Below are positions 1,849 to 9,114 of a DNA stretch of 9,114 nucleotides, piece by piece; positions within the stretch are counted from its first letter, which is position 1, and each line of letters starts with the position of its first letter. Source of the stretch: a bacterium (lineage in GTDB: Bacteria; Bacillota; Bacilli; Lactobacillales; Streptococcaceae). A program made the translations under genes and the position numbers. The notes under the pieces are model-generated. The model did not search any database, was not told the DNA's origin, and worked only from the letters and a program-made list of their open reading frames with translations. The stretch is from positions 1 to 9,114 of the forward strand of contig CAJNDD010000039.1 in NCBI GenBank assembly GCA_905221435.1, in the 5' to 3' direction.

Positions 1849-2944
1849 TTAGCTGATTCGCCACTTGAGATAGGCGTCGATGAAACCATCAAGATCTCCA
1901 TCCATGACCTTATCTACCTGAGCGACTTCAAAGCTCGTACGGTGATCTTTTACCATGGTATAAGGTGTGAAGACATAAGAACGAATCTGACTTCCCCAAG
2001 TGATTTCTTTTTTCTCACCTTTGAGGGAATCGACTTCCGCAGCTTTCTTTTCTTGCTCCATTTGATAGAGCTTGGCCTGCAACATCTTCATGGCACGATC
2101 TCTATTTCCATACTGGGTACGATCGACCGTTGATTGGACGACAGTTCCCGTAGGAATGTGTGTCAAACGCACACCTGTTGAAACCTTATTGACGTTTTGT
2201 CCACCAGCACCACCTGAACGGAAGGTATCCATCTTAATATCATCCTCACGGATTTCCACTTCAATGGTATCATCCAACTCGGGCATAACTTCCACGGAGG
2301 TAAATGAGGTATGGCGGCGTTTGGCAGAGTCAAATGGAGAAATACGTACCAGACGGTGAACACCCATTTCTGACTTGAGAAGACCATAAGCATTTGGACC
2401 TTCAAAAGACAAGGTCACAGACTTGATGCCCGCTTCATCACCAGCTTGATAATCCAAGACTTCAACTTTAAAGCCTTTTGCATTTCCATAACGAGTATAC
2501 ATACGGAGCAACATATCACCCCAGTCCTGAGCCTCTGTACCTCCAGAACCTGGATGGATTTCCAAAATAGCATTATTGTGGTCATAAGGTTCTGACAAGA
2601 GAAGCGTCATCTCGTAGCTGGTCATCATCTTATCGAGTTCTGATAACTGTTCAACCAGTTCATCATGGACTGACTCGTCTTCTGCTAAAAAGTCCAATAA
2701 AATTTCAACTTCATCCTGCAACTCCTCCATCTTGCGGAAGGTGTTGTAGGTATTTTTTAATTCATTTAATTCTTGCGACGTTTTTTGGGCCGCAATATTA
2801 TCGTTCCAAAAATCAGGTTCTGTCATCTTGTTTTCCAAGATGGCAATCTCTTCCTCTAGTCCTTCGAGGTCAAAGAGACCCCCTGAAAGAAGCTAATTTT
2901 TCACGATTTGCGTCAATTTTTTGACGAATTTCTGAAATGTCCAT
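1849..2944 (-). CDS. prfB: Peptide chain release factor 2 (RF2), made by programmed +1 frameshift
   Basis: RF2 recognises UGA and UAA in the ribosomal A site and triggers release of the finished peptide. The gene is in two frames. Frame one runs from ATG 2944 (AGGAG at 2950-2954) for 24 codons, [16 protein letters not shown] through ...RGSL, to an in-frame TGA at 2872-2870. One base (2872) is skipped and reading continues from GAC at 2871 to the TAA at 1851-1849. The joined product is 364 aa, matching the usual RF2 length. Visible motifs in joined numbering are the SPF tripeptide (202-204), which selects the second and third stop-codon bases, and GGQ (247-249), which triggers hydrolysis. The N-terminal coiled-coil domain is also present. 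An annotation starting at 2838 would be a truncated artefact using an internal TTG. ftsE follows after 18 bp. Confidence 0.96.
2869..2884 (-). promoter_or_regulatory. prfB programmed +1 frameshift site
   Basis: The minus strand reads AGGGGGTCTCTTTGAC. This contains the classic elements: an internal Shine-Dalgarno-like AGGGGG three bases before the slip codon, the slippery CTT, and the UGA stop followed by C, a weak termination context. When RF2 is scarce the ribosome slips forward one base, reads GAC and makes full-length RF2, giving autoregulation as described in Escherichia coli prfB. The second base after the SD-like element differs from the commonest version (TCT instead of TAT), but spacing and slip site are intact. 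Confidence 0.95.
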
Positions 2945-2999: not shown

Positions 3000-3028
3000 T
3001 ATTTTGCTTGTTATTTCAAATTGTATAC

Positions 3029-3050
3029 AAAAAAGAGGGCTTTCACCCTC
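3029..3050 (-). terminator. Intrinsic terminator of acuB
   Basis: On the minus strand GAGGGT pairs with GCCCTC (last pair a T-G wobble) around a GAAA tetraloop, followed by six T's (3034-3029). It begins six bases after the acuB stop codon and separates acuB from the prfB promoter. Confidence 0.9.
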
Positions 3051-3055
3051 CATAT

Positions 3056-3712
3056 TTATAACTTTTTAGCAGAGGTTCGAGCAATTTCCTCTACTTGGAT
3101 ACCTTGCGCTTCAAATTTCTCCTTCAGAGAAGTTAAATCACTTGTCCCATCAATTTGAACCTCAATCACGACCTTGCCGTCCTTGCGTGGAATATTAACT
3201 GTGTGAGAAATATTTAGATTTTCCTCAACGATTAAGGTTACAATCTTGCCTAAAACACCAACTTCATTTTCCGTAATAAACCGAACACGAATTCCTTCCT
3301 CGCCGTAGCCAGCAATTTCTAGAAAAGCCTGGAAAACATCACGATCTGTAATCACACCATAAACCTGTTGGTTATCCACAACTGGAAGAATACCGATCTT
3401 ATTCTTCAACATGAGATAGGTCGCATCTTCTAGACTAGCATAACCTGACACTGTGATGACATCCCGAATCATGACGTCTTTGACTTTGGTCTTATTGAGA
3501 AGATAATTCATCTCATAGATAGAGAGGCTGGTTGCTTTAGATGGGCTAGCTTCCGCAATGGTTCCTTCTGTTACCAGACCAACTAATTGGTCATTTTCGA
3601 TAACAGGTAAACGGTGCAAGCCTTGTTCGCGCATCAAATCTGCTGCATGTGCTACAGTCGTATCTGGACTGATATAAACTACCTTGCGGGTCATAAAATC
3701 TTTAACTGCCAT
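3056..3712 (-). CDS. acuB: AcuB-type CBS-CBS-ACT domain protein
   Basis: Cytoplasmic 218-aa protein with two CBS domains (about residues 1-55 and 78-130) and a C-terminal ACT domain (about 140-212). CBS pairs usually bind adenine nucleotides and ACT domains usually bind amino acids, so this is a likely ligand sensor. The family is named after Bacillus subtilis AcuB, linked to acetoin use; the streptococcal role is not established, and no acetoin-catabolism gene is seen here. CBS signatures visible are DFMTRKVVYISPDTTV at the N terminus, HRLPVIENDQLVGLVT (33-48) and ILPVVDNQQVYGVITDRD (108-125). The start at 3712 has AAGGAG seven bases upstream. It has its own promoter and terminator, so it is a single-gene unit. 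A cre-like site over its -35 suggests control by CcpA. Confidence 0.85.
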   Translation of the reverse strand: MAVKDFMTRKVVYISPDTTVAHAADLMREQGLHRLPVIENDQLVGLVTEGTIAEASPSKATSLSIYEMNYLLNKTKVKDVMIRDVITVSGYASLEDATYLMLKNKIGILPVVDNQQVYGVITDRDVFQAFLEIAGYGEEGIRVRFITENEVGVLGKIVTLIVEENLNISHTVNIPRKDGKVVIEVQIDGTSDLTSLKEKFEAQGIQVEEIARTSAKKL

Positions 3713-3741
3713 GAGACTTCTCCTTCTTTATTGCTACTATA

Positions 3742-3770
3742 ATTATACACTTTCTTACAAAAACTATCAA
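3742..3770 (-). promoter_or_regulatory. Promoter of acuB
   Basis: The minus strand has TTGATA (3770-3765), a 17-base spacer and a perfect TATAAT (3747-3742). Transcription would start near 3735, about 22 bases before the acuB ATG. Confidence 0.85.
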
Positions 3771-3780
3771 ACGCTTTCAT
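3766..3780 (-). promoter_or_regulatory. Candidate cre (CcpA) site over the acuB -35 box
   Basis: The minus strand reads ATGAAAGCGTTTGAT, which fits the Gram-positive cre consensus WTGNAANCGNWWNCA at all fixed positions except the last two (AT instead of CA). It overlaps the -35 box of acuB, where a bound repressor would block RNA polymerase. Carbon catabolite control of acu genes is known in Bacillus, which adds plausibility. This is a visual match only. Confidence 0.45.
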
Positions 3781-3812
3781 CTCTTTTTCAAGATTTTGTA
3801 ACATTCAATCAC

Positions 3813-3840
3813 AAAAAAAGAGAGAAACAACCTTCTCTCT
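3813..3840 (-). terminator. Intrinsic terminator of the lic/NCS1 operon
   Basis: On the minus strand AGAGAGAA (3840-3833) pairs perfectly with TTCTCTCT (3826-3819) around a 6-base loop and runs into a T-stretch down to 3813. It begins six bases after the stop codon of the last permease gene and ends the accessory operon before the acuB promoter. Confidence 0.88.
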
Positions 3841-3845
3841 TAAAC

Positions 3846-5273
3846 TTAAATCGTGACGGAATCTCTATCCTTAATCATATAGCGTTTTAAAGAAGTTAAG
3901 CTAGCTAGCCAGTACAATAGACCACCAAAGATTGCAGTAAAACCACTACCAGTTGTGAGCAGGAACATAGGACTCTGGATATGCTTTGTTATAGGATTGT
4001 AAACAAATAGTACTGCAACTAACAAGGAAATGATTACACAAGATAATCCTACCAGATTAAAGCCATTTGTAAACTCATAGGCGTCATGTCCTTCAAGGAA
4101 ATAGGCTGAATGCAAATCAAGTTTTCGTTTTCTTAAGATAAAATAGTCAACAACGATCATTCCGATAATGGGGCCTTGAATATAGGCAGCCAGCGAGATA
4201 AAGGAACCGAAGTATTCATCCACTCCTCCCCAGATGGTAAGTAGGCTCACATAAATCATAGCAATCCAAACCATTAGTTTATAGCTTACTTTAGGCATCC
4301 CGCTTTTTACAATCATACAGTTCACGTACGATCCTGTACCCTGGGTTCCAATATTAGCAAAGGCTACTAATAGTAAACTTAAAAGAGCAAAGGCTGGTGT
4401 GCTTAGAGTTGAAAGCATGGTTGTTGGGTCACTTTCATAGACACCTGTTTTGACAAACATAGCCAAAGCCATCACCCCACCTGTCGCAGCAAAGAATGGC
4501 GCAACAACCCCATATGACAAGGCTGTAGCCCAATAGCCACTACGTTCTGATTTTGCCAAACGTGGTAAGACAAATGCTTGTGTAGACCAAGAAAAGGCTA
4601 CGGCCACATTTCCTTCCCCTGACATCATAAAACGTTCAATCGGTGTCAAATTTTCTTGGATGGCAGGTTGGACATTCATAATATCCCTAATCGGAACCGC
4701 AACAAAACAGATCCCAACGATGATTAGCCCGACAAATAACAAGGCTACCACTAGAAAGCGATTAGTGCCTTTAATCACCTCTGGGCCCCCAAGTGCAATC
4801 AGCGTTCCAAGAAGAACACAGAGTGTACCAAGAATCGGTGCCCATACTCCCTTGTCCAAACCAAGTCCAAAATTATTTGCCAAATGAATCATGGAGCTGG
4901 CAAAAAGATTGGCGGTAACAGCATACCAACCAAAATTTGCCAGACTAATCACGGTTGATAGAACGGCCACCCCTTTTCTACCTAGAACAGCTCTCAACCA
5001 GATCCACAAATCAATTCCATATTTAACAGCAAACAAAATAGGGAGACATTCAATAAAGACCCAGATAATGTTAAAGCTAAAAATATTTATCAACATTTGA
5101 TTAAAAGTCAAATACTGAGCCACATAGGCTCCTTGGGTATAACACCAAGTTGCGATGGCAAAACCACTTGTTGATAGGAAGAGGTCCCAGAAAGAATACT
5201 GACGATCCTTGTTGGTCATAGGAACGATTCCCGTTATCGTCTCCTGTTGAATAAAGTCATTCATCTTGGACAT
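3846..5273 (-). CDS. NCS1-family permease, copy 1 (operon-distal)
   Basis: A 475-aa polytopic membrane protein with about 12 hydrophobic segments, typical of the NCS1 nucleobase:cation symporter family (CodB, PucI, Mhp1, CytX). Family marks are the N-terminal VP...R.YSFWDLF (17-32) leading into TM1, the TM6 segment with Trp229 followed by PRLAKSE (237-243), and the GPIIGMIVVDYFILRKRKL stretch (367-385), the classic NCS1 GP..G...DY...R loop. Members take up cytosine, allantoin, hydantoins or thiamine precursors with Na+ or H+; the substrate here is unknown. By hand alignment it differs from copy 2 at 28 of 475 positions, including G169W, R196T, V225F and F234L (copy 1 residue first). AGGAG sits 12 bases before the ATG, inside the remnant of the small gene. 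It has no promoter of its own that I can see and ends at the operon terminator. The lic-type neighbour suggests choline or a related amino alcohol, but this is inference. Confidence 0.9.
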   Translation of the reverse strand: MSKMNDFIQQETITGIVPMTNKDRQYSFWDLFLSTSGFAIATWCYTQGAYVAQYLTFNQMLINIFSFNIIWVFIECLPILFAVKYGIDLWIWLRAVLGRKGVAVLSTVISLANFGWYAVTANLFASSMIHLANNFGLGLDKGVWAPILGTLCVLLGTLIALGGPEVIKGTNRFLVVALLFVGLIIVGICFVAVPIRDIMNVQPAIQENLTPIERFMMSGEGNVAVAFSWSTQAFVLPRLAKSERSGYWATALSYGVVAPFFAATGGVMALAMFVKTGVYESDPTTMLSTLSTPAFALLSLLLVAFANIGTQGTGSYVNCMIVKSGMPKVSYKLMVWIAMIYVSLLTIWGGVDEYFGSFISLAAYIQGPIIGMIVVDYFILRKRKLDLHSAYFLEGHDAYEFTNGFNLVGLSCVIISLLVAVLFVYNPITKHIQSPMFLLTTGSGFTAIFGGLLYWLASLTSLKRYMIKDRDSVTI

Positions 5274-5274
5274 T

Positions 5275-5399
5275 TTATCAAATATCTCCTGTCATGGCTA
5301 AAATAATCAGAACATGATTGACTAGAATCATATCAATTACTAGTGTAAAATTAACTTTCAAAAAAGAGGAAGCAAATAGATATAGATGAAGGTTTTCAT
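5275..5399 (-). pseudogene. Remnant of the 61-aa small membrane protein gene
   Basis: Reading the minus strand in frame from about 5400 to the TGA at 5280-5278 gives ...FASSFLKVNFTLVIDM... and ends ...VLIILAMTGDI. This matches the C-terminal 37 or so residues of the intact 61-aa protein at 6835-7020. The N-terminal charged half is missing. The ATG matching Met22 of the intact gene (5399-5397) is out of frame because of two extra bases near 5381. The only in-frame ATG (5331) lies inside the membrane helix. The stop has moved one codon earlier (TGA just before the ancestral TAA). It still carries the AGGAG used by permease copy 1, which may be why it persists. Confidence 0.8.
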
Positions 5400-5404
5400 T
5401 TATC

Positions 5405-6957
5405 CTTAAATCGTAACAGAGTCCCGATCCTTGATCATATAGCGTTTTAACGGAGTTAAGCTAGCTAACCAGTACAATAAACCACCAAAAATTGCAGTAA
5501 AGCCACTACCAGTTGTGATTAAAAAGACTGGACTTTGAATCTGTGCTGTTACAGGATTATAAACAAATAGTACTGCAACCAACAAGGAGATAAATACGCA
5601 AGACAAGCCAACCAAGTTAAATCCTTTGGTAAACTCGTAAGCATCGTGTCCTTCAAGGAAATAAGCTGAACGCAAATCAAGTTTTCGTTTTCTTAAGATA
5701 AAGTAGTCAACAACGATCATACCAATAATTGGTCCCTGAATATAAGCGGCTAGTGAGATGAAGGAACCGAAGTACTCTTCTACCCCTCCCCATATAGTGA
5801 GTAGACTCACGTAAACCATAGCAATCCAAACCATTAGTTTATAGCTTACTTTGGGCATCCCGCTTTTGACAATCATACAGTTCACGTACGATCCTGTACC
5901 CTGAGTTCCAATATTGGCAAAGGCTACTAATAGTAAACTTAAAAGCGCAAAGGCTGGAGTGCTTAGAGTTGATAGCATGGTTGTTGGATCACTTTCATAA
6001 ACACCTGTTTTGACAAACATGGCTAGAGCCATGACTCCACCTGTCGCAACGAAGAATGGAGCCACAACTCCGTATGATAAGGCTGTAGCCCAATAACCAC
6101 TGCGTTCTGATTTTGCCAAACGCGGTAAAACCAATGCCTGTGTAGACCAAGAGAAGGCAAAGGCTACATTTCCTTCTCCAGAAAGCATGAAGCGTTCTAA
6201 TGGCGTCAAATCTCCTTGGGTAGCCGGTTGAATGTTCATAATGTCAGTGATAGGCACGGCTACAAAGCAGATTCCAACGATAATGAGACCGACAATCAAC
6301 AAGGCGATTACCAAGAATCGATTGGTCCATTTAATCACTTCTGGACCTCCAAGTGCAATAAGCGTTCCAAGAAGAACACAGAGTGTACCAAGAATAGGCG
6401 CCCATACTCCCTTGTCTAAACCAAGACCAAAATTATTTGCCAAGTGGATCATAGAACTAGCAAAAAGATTGGCCGCAACGGCATACCAGCCAAAGTTAGC
6501 TAAACTAATAATGGTTGATAGCAAGGCTACGCCTTTTTTTCCGAGGACAGCTCTCAACCAAATCCATAAATCAATTCCATACTTAACGGCAAACAAAATT
6601 GGGAGACATTCAATAAAGACCCAGATAATGTTAAAACTAAAAATATTAATCAACATTTGATTAAAGGTCAAATATTGAGCCACATAGGCTCCTTGGGTAT
6701 AACACCAAGTTGCGATGGCAAAACCACTTGTCGACAGAAAGAGATCCCAGAAAGAATACTGACGATCCTTGTTGGTCATGGGAACAATACCCGTTATCGT
6801 CTCCTGTTGAATAAAGTCATTCATCTTAGACATTTTATTGAATACCTCCTGTCATGGCTAGGATAATCAGAATAAGGTTAATTAGAACTAAGCCAATGAC
6901 TATAATAAAATCACTTTTTAGAAATGGCTGAGCAAACACATAGTTTGGAGATTCCAT
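5405..6957 (-). repeat. Direct repeat copy 2 (permease gene plus 3' part of small gene)
   Basis: Second member of the tandem repeat of about 1.56 kb paired with 3845-5399. It contains the whole of permease copy 2 and the last 40 or so codons of the intact small gene. Because the small gene is complete only here, this is probably the ancestral unit and copy 1 the derived one. Confidence 0.88.
5406..6833 (-). CDS. NCS1-family permease, copy 2 (promoter-proximal)
   Basis: A 475-aa NCS1-family permease with the same length and motifs as copy 1 and about 94% identity to it. It begins at ATG 6833, one base after the stop of the 61-aa gene (TAA A ATG). Its AGGAGG lies inside the last codons of that gene, 11 bases before the ATG, so translation of the two is probably coupled. 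Residues that differ from copy 1 are denser in the central part (about 169-234). They include Trp169, Thr196, Phe225 and Leu234, the last two flanking the conserved TM6 Trp229, which in Mhp1 (by my alignment its Trp220) contacts substrate. It is encoded two genes after the HTH-cytidylyltransferase-kinase gene and is likely its transport partner. Cytosine or another pyrimidine is the main alternative substrate to an amino alcohol. Confidence 0.9.
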   Translation of the reverse strand: MSKMNDFIQQETITGIVPMTNKDRQYSFWDLFLSTSGFAIATWCYTQGAYVAQYLTFNQMLINIFSFNIIWVFIECLPILFAVKYGIDLWIWLRAVLGKKGVALLSTIISLANFGWYAVAANLFASSMIHLANNFGLGLDKGVWAPILGTLCVLLGTLIALGGPEVIKWTNRFLVIALLIVGLIIVGICFVAVPITDIMNIQPATQGDLTPLERFMLSGEGNVAFAFSWSTQALVLPRLAKSERSGYWATALSYGVVAPFFVATGGVMALAMFVKTGVYESDPTTMLSTLSTPAFALLSLLLVAFANIGTQGTGSYVNCMIVKSGMPKVSYKLMVWIAMVYVSLLTIWGGVEEYFGSFISLAAYIQGPIIGMIVVDYFILRKRKLDLRSAYFLEGHDAYEFTKGFNLVGLSCVFISLLVAVLFVYNPVTAQIQSPVFLITTGSGFTAIFGGLLYWLASLTPLKRYMIKDRDSVTI

Positions 6958-7020
6958 TTCTTCTAACCTTCTTTTCGTTTCATTTGCTACTAATTCTTCA
7001 ATCTCAGATGTCGGTTTCAT
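6835..7020 (-). CDS. 61-aa single-helix membrane protein, possible permease subunit
   Basis: I do not recognise a named family. The 61 residues split into a charged N-terminal part (4-22, rich in E, K and R, likely helical and cytoplasmic) and one hydrophobic segment (about 37-58, FIIVIGLVLINLILIILAMT), ending GGIQ. There is no signal peptidase site. The start at 7020 has GGAGGAG seven bases upstream and lies one base after the TGA of the kinase gene; its stop is one base before the permease ATG. Such tight packing and strong ribosome binding sites support a real gene. Small one-helix partners encoded next to a permease are known for other transporters (for example MetS with MetP, YhdT next to PanF), so an accessory subunit is my inference. 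A simple role in translational coupling is the alternative. Confidence 0.8.
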   Translation of the reverse strand: MKPTSEIEELVANETKRRLEEMESPNYVFAQPFLKSDFIIVIGLVLINLILIILAMTGGIQ

Positions 7021-7021
7021 C

Positions 7022-8800
7022 TCAATTCTCCTCCAAATACAAATCTAGTGCAATTTGCCCATACTGCTTGGTATAACGATACCAGATATAAAGAAATTCA
7101 CCTACGGGTTTCCCAACGCTTTCTTGGAACAGGGCCCACAAAAACCAATAATATGAAGTCACTGATACATAGGCAAAATAGTGACGTTTGGTGTTCTTAT
7201 CTGGAACTTCTTGTAAATAGATTTCAAGTACCTTTTCGGCTTCTTCTACCGTATAATTTGAACACCCGATAAAGGTTCCTAAATCTCCTGCTGGATCTCC
7301 CATACCAGAATATTCCCAATCAATCAAGCTCATTTCGCCAGCTTCATTCAACAAGAAATTTGGACTATAAGAATCTCCATGGCAGAGAACCTTTTTCGCT
7401 TGGTCTTCTTGTAAAAGCTTCTCGAGAACTGAGACATTCTGATCCAACTCTTCAAGCCCATCAAATTCAAAACGATTGCTAGCCTTTAATTTTTGTCTAA
7501 AATCATCAATTCCCTCAAATTGGTCAAAGGAATGTCCCGTTTTTTCTCCAGATTGGTGCAAGCGTCTCAAGAGCTCCATTGCTTTTGCTACATCATCCCA
7601 ATTATCATAATCTAGTTGCTTAGCATTAGGGATAAATTCTGAAATTTTCCAGCCCTCATCCTTGTTCATGGCAACAAAGGTACGGTCAATCTTCAATTTT
7701 GCAGCAATTTCCATGGAAGCTGCCTCGCTAGCACGATCGATATAATTCTCCGTTCCTCTACCTGGATGACGGTAAACATATTTCTTCCCTAGGCAGTCAA
7801 ATGAAAACGAAGTGTTGGTTAAACCGTCTTTTAGGGGTTTAATATTGACAATATCTGAAGCTATACATCCTAATGTCTTACAGATGTTATCAATGATTTC
7901 CGAATTAGTATTCACCAAATAGTGTTCATCAAACTGACGCAACTCATCTAGTGAATCAAACTCCTTAACAATGTCTGCTGAATAATGCCGAGCTTCCAAA
8001 GGAAGTTCCTTGACGTGACGACTATAATAATCTTCCCAGAGCTGTTCGCGATATGGTTCGTGCTTAAATTCAGTTTCTAAAATATCTACGAACTTTTCAC
8101 TAAATGCACGATCAAAATAAACATGCCCCACCATAGCCCAAGTATTCGTCCCACCGATTTGAATATCGATAATCGTGTGATTGGAGTCTTCCTTAGAGCA
8201 GTATTCGTCTGTGTCCCCTTCTGCAAATATAGTCGAATAATAACCTCTGTAAATGTATCGCTCAAACGGATTTTCTACAAAATAATTATCCGAAGAGCAG
8301 ATATAAGTGTTAGAAAGTTGATCTCTGACTAGCATGAGAGAAGAACAGTTATTGTACTTGTAGTAATCATTATTCACAACGATTTTAACGCCAAACTTTT
8401 CTGCCAGATAAAACATTTTTTCTTGCAGATATCCTACAATAACTGTAATGTCCTCTATCCCAGCTTCTTGCAATTGCTTGATTTCTCTCTCAATCAAACG
8501 CTCACCTTTAACTTGAAGCAATCCTTTAGGTAGCTCATAAGACAAAGGAGCAAAGCGGCTACTCATACCTGCAGCCATGATAATGGCATTCTTCACCTGA
8601 TACGGAGCCAAAGCCTCCTCACCTAAGTCAGTTAAGTGATTTTCCTCACTGATCCACTTCTCTTCTTTACATTCCTTGAGAAGATTATTTACCGTCCCCA
8701 AAGCGATATCTAGCTGTTCAGCCAATTGTCTCTGCGTAAAGTTTTCGTCTTTGTGAGTCAACAAAAAACGTAAAAGTTTAAATTGTTTTTCTGATAGCAT
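7022..8800 (-). CDS. Fused winged-HTH / LicC-like cytidylyltransferase / LicA-like kinase
   Basis: A 592-aa cytoplasmic protein with three parts. Residues 1-67 form a winged helix-turn-helix (TQRQLAEQLDIALGTVNNLL about 22-41). Residues 70-295 form a LicC-like nucleotidyltransferase with AIIMAAGMSSRFAPLSY and ELPK (72-92; Arg82 and Lys92 are the expected nucleotide contacts) and DNYF (171-174; Asp171 likely metal ligand). Residues 300-592 form a LicA-type choline/ethanolamine kinase: GLTNTSFSF (326-334), HGDSYSPN (474-481, catalytic Asp476), IDWEY (493-497, metal Asp494) and GDPAGDL (501-507). Predicted reactions are ATP phosphorylation of choline or a similar amino alcohol, then transfer to CTP giving a CDP-alcohol, the donor for LicD-type decoration of teichoic acids in streptococci. 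I start at ATG 8800 because AAAGAGG lies eight bases upstream and the consensus promoter lies just beyond. The frame stays open to 8965 but would run through the promoter and a terminator. The 61-aa gene follows directly. Confidence 0.88.
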   Translation of the reverse strand: MLSEKQFKLLRFLLTHKDENFTQRQLAEQLDIALGTVNNLLKECKEEKWISEENHLTDLGEEALAPYQVKNAIIMAAGMSSRFAPLSYELPKGLLQVKGERLIEREIKQLQEAGIEDITVIVGYLQEKMFYLAEKFGVKIVVNNDYYKYNNCSSLMLVRDQLSNTYICSSDNYFVENPFERYIYRGYYSTIFAEGDTDEYCSKEDSNHTIIDIQIGGTNTWAMVGHVYFDRAFSEKFVDILETEFKHEPYREQLWEDYYSRHVKELPLEARHYSADIVKEFDSLDELRQFDEHYLVNTNSEIIDNICKTLGCIASDIVNIKPLKDGLTNTSFSFDCLGKKYVYRHPGRGTENYIDRASEAASMEIAAKLKIDRTFVAMNKDEGWKISEFIPNAKQLDYDNWDDVAKAMELLRRLHQSGEKTGHSFDQFEGIDDFRQKLKASNRFEFDGLEELDQNVSVLEKLLQEDQAKKVLCHGDSYSPNFLLNEAGEMSLIDWEYSGMGDPAGDLGTFIGCSNYTVEEAEKVLEIYLQEVPDKNTKRHYFAYVSVTSYYWFLWALFQESVGKPVGEFLYIWYRYTKQYGQIALDLYLEEN

Positions 8801-8837
8801 ATCCTCAGCCTCTTTGTTCAATATTTTTGTTGATTTA

Positions 8838-8866
8838 ATTATATGATGAACGCGTGCTTTTGTCAA
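8838..8866 (-). promoter_or_regulatory. Perfect consensus promoter of the lic/NCS1 operon
   Basis: The minus strand has TTGACA (8866-8861), a spacer of exactly 17 bases and TATAAT (8843-8838), matching the sigma-70/SigA consensus at all 12 positions. The start point would be near 8831, giving a leader of about 30 bases with AAAGAGG at 8815-8809. A promoter this strong usually needs a repressor, and the HTH domain of the first gene product is a candidate. Confidence 0.93.
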
Positions 8867-8928
8867 GTTAGATTCTATATCAAGAAAACGAGTGCTCAAA
8901 TCAGGTCCATCAAAATAGGAACCAAACG

Positions 8929-8956
8929 AAAAAAGAGCCCCAAATTTGGAGCTCTT
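8929..8956 (-). terminator. Orphan minus-strand terminator upstream of the operon
   Basis: On the minus strand AAGAGCTCC (8956-8948) pairs with GGGGCTCTT (8941-8933), with one T-G wobble, around AAATTT, and continues into six T's (8934-8929). It would stop transcripts entering from the right edge before the operon promoter. No gene belonging to it is visible; an IS-like end lies immediately to its right. Confidence 0.82.
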
Positions 8957-8984
8957 CAAATTCATCTACAAAATAATCCACTAA

Positions 8985-9114
8985 ATCATAACCACCCGTC
9001 TAACGGGTGGTTTGCACCAGGGCTATAAGCCCAAATCACCAGCCAGCGCCTAAAGACGCTGGCTTTCACTTTGTTCAAGCCTCATTGCTCTTGACTCGTC
9101 ACAAACCTCTCAAA
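8985..9114 (-). mobile_element. Right end of an IS200/IS605-family element (runs off window)
   Basis: Three hairpins lie in a row: AACCACCCGT/ACGGGTGGTT (8990-8999 with 9003-9012, 3-base loop), GGGCT/AGCCC (9020-9024 with 9028-9032) and AGCCAGCG/CGCTGGCT (9041-9048 with 9057-9064). Read on the minus strand, the order CGCTGGC, GGGCTTATAGCCC, GGTGCAAACCACCCG, then a terminal hairpin, is how I remember the right ends of IS200-like elements in Firmicutes, where subterminal hairpins are bound by the Y1 transposase. Such elements lack terminal inverted repeats, so the outer boundary cannot be fixed; it should lie within about 20 bases left of 8990. The identification rests on memory and structure, not on a search. 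Confidence 0.6.
9082..9114 (-). CDS. Possible C-terminal end of an IS200-type transposase (partial)
   Basis: On the minus strand one frame is open from the window edge and reads FERFVTSQEQ before a TGA at 9084-9082. The other two frames stop within the segment. The position, about 20 bases before the first IS hairpin, is where the tnpA stop would be in an IS200-like element. Ten residues are too few to recognise the family, so this call depends on the hairpin identification. A TnpB end is the alternative. Confidence 0.4.
   Translation of the reverse strand, partial: FERFVTSQEQ

Follow-up and report, generated by a model that had tools for sequence, protein, structure and literature searches.

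In pneumococci, the lic1 locus encodes a transporter (LicB), a kinase (LicA) and a cytidylyltransferase (LicC), and fusions of the two enzymes occur in treponemes. The choline pocket of LicA is formed by Tyr197, Trp251, Trp254, Tyr268 and Val178, with Glu213 at its rim (PMC4364537). Pneumococcal LicC is reported to prefer phosphocholine over phosphoethanolamine by about 2700-fold (PMC6697681), which suggests that a user of ethanolamine would need an enzyme of its own. Streptococcus mitis SK598 and SK601 are described as lacking phosphocholine and carrying ethanolamine in its place (PMC2444020), in SK598 even in choline medium (PMC5513899), with both reports citing a 2003 paper. Among NCS1 proteins, MetT imports metformin, and the uptake left in its W43A, W117A and W231A variants is 2.2%, 9.0% and 11.2%, respectively (PMC13390362). 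Here, we describe an operon in a 9,114-nucleotide stretch of streptococcal DNA (contig CAJNDD010000039.1 of assembly GCA_905221435.1; hereafter, the window) that joins a LicC-LicA fusion enzyme to permeases of the NCS1 family. This gene combination is a new variant of the Lic pathway, and no paper on it was found in the literature searched, which had most subscription journals outside its reach.

On the minus strand, the operon comprises genes for the fusion protein, a 61-amino-acid membrane protein and two NCS1 permeases (NCS1-A and NCS1-B), in this order, with a single promoter and a single terminator. The junctions on either side of the small gene measure one base each, and 132 bases lie between NCS1-A and NCS1-B. 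Neither a LicB-type (EamA) gene, sought among open reading frames and Pfam matches, nor an Rfam RNA at gathering scores was found in the window. The first-pass annotation of this DNA had described the same single promoter and terminator, the one-base junctions of the first three genes and the lack of a LicB-type gene, all of which hold. Its proposal of a different transport solution in place of LicB is not supported, since lic1 LicB is present in each of the 31 genomes that carry the cassette (divided into two pieces, on separate contigs, in G111, and with 279 of 302 residues covered in G003). In G001, LicB (L103) lies between licA and licC, and S. oralis Uo5 has been reported with LicABC (PMC4649388). 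As judged from these sequences, some oral streptococci carry the operon as a second pathway beside lic1 and not as a replacement of it, and a second pathway would be more useful for a second headgroup. With about as much confidence as doubt, we propose that the operon imports an amino alcohol, likely ethanolamine, and converts it to a CDP-alcohol for LicD-type transferases. The main rival explanation is a second choline pathway, in which NCS1 imports choline for conversion to CDP-choline by the fusion and which backs up lic1 under regulation or with high affinity; we consider this unlikely on balance, and the LicB already encoded in all cassette genomes is one argument against it.

Recurrence of the fusion with NCS1 was the main test that the first-pass annotation had set for itself, and the pairing does recur. 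A contig scan returned 17 loci, 16 of them in the mitis group and all 16 with fusion, small gene and NCS1 in order (L008 covers the first 34 residues of NCS1, where its contig stops); the seventeenth was a weak Bifidobacterium match. In a genus-wide search, the fusion was found at 83% identity or more in 31 of 284 Streptococcus genomes. When 75 of the 284 were searched with NCS1-A, a match was obtained in 30 of the 31 genomes with the fusion and in none of the 44 without it; in the remaining fusion genome, G111, 293 bases separate the end of the fusion gene from a contig end. Beyond the genus, the same trio occurs in two distant genomes, at L108 (genome G854) and at L080 (G622), where the fusion (51-55% identity), the small protein and NCS1 (70-71%) stand in a gene run with LicD and a CTP_transf_like protein. 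Across a phylum draw of 398 genomes, the fusion was matched in four (at 1e-45) and NCS1 in six (at 1e-30), with G001 in both counts. The class of G590 (97 genomes) yielded one NCS1 relative besides G590 (region L146), and a search of the order of G622 (189 genomes) gave the same 17 matches as the family search. Such tight linkage argues against the view that the permeases are pyrimidine carriers of the ordinary kind, incidentally present in the operon and providing cytosine for CTP; we regard this explanation as very improbable.

The 16 loci occupy three different insertion sites. Ten are adjacent to livF, nine of them also with acuB, and three (L012-L014) lie near a ThrC-like gene. The other three (L006-L008), of the S. 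mitis lineage, place the cassette 4-7 kb downstream of a flippase gene and a pair of LicD genes. On the downstream side, L006 and L007 have hom and also a second, reversed flippase gene or fragment.

Within the fusion, Pfam assigns NTP_transf_3 to residues 72-162, and Choline_kinase and APH to residues 320-545. The nearest solved structures by sequence are LicC 1jyk (8e-39) and LicA 4r77 (7e-26), which favor the choline explanation. The start at 8800 is preceded by a ribosome-binding-site-like stretch, GAGG, and gives a protein as long as most relatives among the matches listed; a longer reading frame from 8965 was rejected because this start lies upstream of the promoter. The catalytic LicA residues Asp176, Asn181, Asp194 and Glu196 (roles per PMC4364537) are kept as D476, N481, D494 and E496. 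The fusion counterparts of LicA residues 197, 251, 254, 268, 178 and 213 are Tyr, Trp, Trp, Phe, Tyr and Cys, respectively. In a comparison of 27 kinases, the combination of Tyr178 and Cys213 was found in all six paired with NCS1 and in the only one paired with the ethanolamine-type transporter EutH, but in none of the 17 paired with LicB or BCCT transporters, which counts against the choline explanation, nor in the three others. These seven sequences represent four lineages, since four streptococcal ones are near-copies. In the kinase tree, the NCS1-paired sequences lie to one side of a branch (98/93), the EutH-paired one is their neighbor and the LicB- and BCCT-paired ones stand apart; two long sequences (L144 and L120) also fall beside the NCS1-paired ones, their placement being unsure. 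The first-pass annotation had offered a different substrate as its second option, and this option gains weight from a residue pair that the NCS1-paired kinases share just with the EutH-paired relative. LicC residues were also considered as discriminators between choline and primary amines (after PMC6697681) and were set aside as uninformative: position 192 of LicC is Glu in every sequence compared, LicB- and BCCT-paired ones included, with lic1 LicC as the sole exception.

A transporter that varies beside related enzymes is expected if it imports the kinase substrate. At least 14 other streptococcal fusions are among the matches listed, and 13 of their neighborhoods were read, with G062 left out. 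Of these, 11 contain LicB (adjacent in nine, about 3 kb away in L141 and L142), two contain BCCT with a LicC gene between (L104 and L135), and none contains NCS1. In the family of G622, where 15 of 17 matches were read (G706 and G707 being left out), the transporter is NCS1 in two neighborhoods (L080 and L108), EutH in one (L109), BCCT in one (L117) and LicB-like in six; no transporter was seen in the other five (L111, L113, L114, L119 and L120). These labels rest on Pfam for L103, L104, L105, L109, L110 and L117, on BLAST against references for L135-L145, and on reading for the others. The pairing of related fusions with LicB or BCCT is in line with choline. The closest outgroups of the enzyme and of the permease point towards ethanolamine and away from choline: EutH stands beside the fusion in L109, and L081, whose NCS1 is the closest one not in a cassette (48-49% identity), has a EutQ fragment (E 9e-9) upstream of it. 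Together, the kinase pocket and these sister loci modestly favor ethanolamine over choline as the predicted substrate, without proving it.

Two of the neighborhoods have unusual content of their own. In L143 (2370-9784), the neighbors of a LicC-LicA fusion are BCCT, a LicC encoded separately, and genes for a corrinoid protein and an MttB-like product, an arrangement that recalls the choline demethylation cluster described in Eubacterium limosum (PMC12155760). L119 (6435-8777) encodes a 780-amino-acid protein that combines an N-terminus like a winged helix-turn-helix (wHTH) with nucleotidyltransferase and SHMT/PLP-type domains; the gene next to it is LicD-like by reading.

Both window permeases score above the PF02133 cut-off (68.8 and 69.4 bits against 23.5) and have the NCS1 fold, the fold of CodB and Mhp1. 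Matches to the NCBIfam ncs1 subfamily model TIGR00800 (63.2 and 59 bits against 353.1) and to the NCBIfam CodB model fall far below cut-off, which speaks against pyrimidine carriers. Their W43, W116 and W229 match W43, W117 and W231 of MetT, as mapped through alignment with the L177 permease standing in for MetT, and are accompanied by Glu220 in transmembrane helix (TM) 6. Among 15 NCS1 sequences compared, Glu220 and Trp229 are present in all and Trp43 and Trp116 in 13, the exceptions being two HODM-linked sequences with Ile and Tyr at positions 43 and 116. Of these four residues, CodB and AllW keep just Trp116, and their difference at 43, 220 and 229 is a further argument against a pyrimidine substrate. 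The split between the NCS1 relatives and CodB/AllW (88/94) is partly by construction, as the relatives were chosen by similarity to NCS1-A. The view of the first-pass annotation that NCS1 acts as the carrier is strengthened by this signature, and by their residues the window permeases look like cation carriers.

More distant NCS1 relatives adjoin genes for MttB and corrinoid proteins (L082 and L083), HODM N-demethylase (L084 and L174), and betA and agmatinase (L175 and L176), or, in L146, carbamoyltransferase, deiminase-like and nitrilase-like genes. The L177 relative belongs to the metformin region of a Pseudomonas plasmid, and a metformin region including a cytosine permease is reported as common to the metformin degraders studied in PMC9800807. 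Next to the L178 relative, an LLM-type oxidoreductase and an amidohydrolase are encoded, and neither gives a clear link to amines. The location of relatives in amine or guanidine loci counts against pyrimidine carriers. Its variety, together with the action on methylated amines suggested by the family names HODM and MttB, fits the import and activation of another cationic amino alcohol or amine, such as mono- or dimethyl-ethanolamine; given that no gene of the window points to such a compound, we consider this quite improbable.

Several observations weigh against ethanolamine as the substrate of the operon. The fusion retains most of the aromatic cage in which LicA holds choline (Tyr197, Trp251 and Trp254, with Tyr268 replaced by Phe), as the choline explanation would have it, and the LicC residues compared fail to discriminate between substrates. 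The EutH pairing is known from one locus that is cut by a contig end, and the EutQ link is a fragment at a single locus. The relatives of MetT are distant, the metformin-cluster permease (L177) being 24% identical, and betA or MttB beside some NCS1 relatives fits choline or betaines. Finally, no licD gene was found in the searched flanks of the liv-acuB loci.

The N-terminus of the fusion matches MarR_2 and HTH_24 above Pfam cut-off (residues 3-53) and is thus a wHTH. The promoter of the operon is the only one with a full consensus among 28 promoter-like sites in 3000-9114; shuffled sequence gave a mean of 14.6 sites of any score. Its -35 and -10 boxes are conserved across 20 distinct promoters, three of which have TACAAT as -10. 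A GTTCA/TGAAC inverted repeat flanks the -10 box in all 20, whose mean pairwise identity is 69%, with a spacing of 31 bases from start to start in 17 and 30 in three. In the distant L108, which has a recognition-helix stretch (SLGKVNRVLK) similar to that of the window (ALGTVNNLLK), the pair recurs at 30 bases around the -10 box, as it did in 13 of 20000 shuffles. The LicB-paired streptococcal fusion of L145 (SLGKINNILK) is preceded by TTGTTCA-N5-TGAACAA (14 of 20000 shuffles). The pair is missing upstream of L109, which has different recognition-helix residues, and of L080, which has a truncated N-terminus. A further two loci weigh against a simple operator rule, L104 (SLGLVNRTIR) and L135 (SLGVVNKCIK), which have fairly similar wHTH stretches without the pair. 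Because the repeat is co-conserved with the wHTH, the fusion enzyme probably represses its own operon through it. A regulon scan of six genomes with the pattern TGTTCATN{21,26}TGAACA found six cassette sites and four further distinct sites, against one for the reversed control pattern; the cassette site of G003 ends in G and was hence missed. One of the four further sites (G001:C20:38784-38817), outside the cassette, is self-palindromic and operator-like.

Neither Pfam nor NCBIfam contains a model that matches the small protein up to E 10, and a comparison with phage records gave no match either. Immediately upstream of 14 of 15 related permeases, the window's own not being counted, is a candidate small open reading frame whose product would be hydrophobic in its C-terminal half. 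The fifteenth is L177, on the metformin plasmid carried by Pseudomonas sp. KHPS1; there, an in-frame stop precedes the hydrophobic part of the upstream frame, just upstream of 5155. This conserved position suggests that the protein is likely an accessory subunit of the NCS1 permease. NCS1-B is preceded by a relic of the small gene only, and the relic in the 132-base gap, a feature absent from the first-pass annotation, identifies NCS1-B as the remainder of a second tandem cassette. In L005, pieces of a second fusion gene precede NCS1-B, and the fusion-small-NCS1 cassette is present twice in each of L012 and L013, the second small match of L013 covering residues 5-61. The window copies differ by 0.75 synonymous (dS) and 0.031 nonsynonymous (dN) substitutions per site. 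Among the five genomes with both copies, mean dN/dS is 0.020 for NCS1-A and 0.027 for NCS1-B, by which the possibility that NCS1-B is a pseudogene was rejected; on these substitution rates, NCS1-B is maintained by selection. In L005 (11876-13447), NCS1-B is split and NCS1-A intact.

Table 1. Features of the operon and its control region (window positions).
Feature	Position	Strand	Remarks
Fusion protein, 592 aa	7022..8800	-	wHTH at about residues 1-68; LicC-like cytidylyltransferase 69-292; LicA-like kinase, 313-571 aligned
61-aa protein, hydrophobic C-terminal half	6835..7020	-	candidate homologues directly upstream of related permeases
NCS1-A permease, 475 aa	5406..6833	-	
Small-protein gene relic (second copy)	5274..5405	-	between NCS1-A and NCS1-B
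NCS1-B permease, 475 aa, 94% identity to NCS1-A	3846..5273	-	mean dN/dS 0.027 (five genomes)
Intrinsic-terminator-like hairpin and T-run	3818..3841	-	sequence scan
Sigma-70-type promoter, TTGACA-17-TATAAT	8838..8866	-	12/12 consensus bases
Operator candidate, upstream half GTTCAT, promoter spacer	8846..8851	-	invariant in 20/20 distinct promoters
Operator candidate, downstream half TGAAC, leader	8816..8820	-	invariant in 20/20 distinct promoters

Upstream of the operon, at 8990-9114, the sequence departs from the spacer shared by the liv cassettes into hairpin-rich DNA (CCACCCG...CGGGTGG) that resembles the end of an insertion sequence, about 30 bases of it being similar to a stretch upstream of the second cassette of L013. 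Elsewhere in the window, prfB (about 2838-2943, minus strand) has its usual two-part reading frame. The sequence at the join is AGGGGGTCTCTTTGAC, which we take to be the motif expected for programmed frameshifting.

Under the ethanolamine reading, the NCS1 permease, probably with the 61-amino-acid subunit, would bring in the cation through its aromatic and acidic site. The kinase domain would then phosphorylate it, and the LicC-like domain would couple the product to CMP, as the conserved catalytic residues suggest. LicD proteins may move the phospho-alcohol onto teichoic acid, in keeping with the licD genes that lie close to the cassette in three loci as well as in L080. The wHTH likely binds GTTCA/TGAAC around the -10 box and would repress the operon until substrate or product is sensed. 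We tentatively, and with doubt prevailing, extend this scheme to a dedicated CDP-ethanolamine pathway of the mitis group, in which a two-part NCS1 importer (one-helix subunit and permease) and a self-repressing trigger enzyme give rise to the ethanolamine teichoic acids of SK598 and SK601. The importer would then derive from a wide cation-amine branch of the NCS1 family, in which the sole tested member found is MetT. If true, the teichoic-acid headgroup of streptococci could be fed by two separate pathways. The operon also provides a candidate for the genes behind walls in which ethanolamine replaces choline, a trait for which no genetic explanation was found in the accessible portions of that literature. 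Moreover, NCS1 members are routinely labeled cytosine permeases, and the operon would widen the family to carriers of cationic amines that have a conserved small partner. It also offers a short, testable candidate operator for an enzyme with a repressor domain of its own.

Compared with known carriers, the window permeases share their fold with CodB and Mhp1, in which Trp43, Glu220 and Trp229 are missing where aligned (TM1 of Mhp1 lies outside the aligned fragment). They share with MetT three essential Trp positions and a separation from nucleobase carriers (PMC13390362), but differ from it by low identity (24% to the L177 metformin-cluster permease) and different enzyme neighbors. The enzyme resembles that of L109 in being a 592-amino-acid fusion with the same Tyr178/Cys213 kinase pair, whereas L109 has a EutH neighbor, other recognition-helix residues and no GTTCA/TGAAC pair upstream. 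Other streptococcal LicC-LicA fusions (L104-L107, L135-L142 and L145) are likewise fused, some with a wHTH-like N-terminus, but are 25-36% identical among the matches listed and partnered with LicB or BCCT instead of NCS1. With pneumococcal lic1, the operon has in common the kinase and cytidylyltransferase families and the logic of uptake, phosphorylation and CDP activation. In contrast to lic1, its enzymes are fused to each other and to a wHTH, NCS1 and a small protein stand where lic1 has LicB, the kinase pocket is altered at two positions, and the whole operon occurs in addition to lic1.

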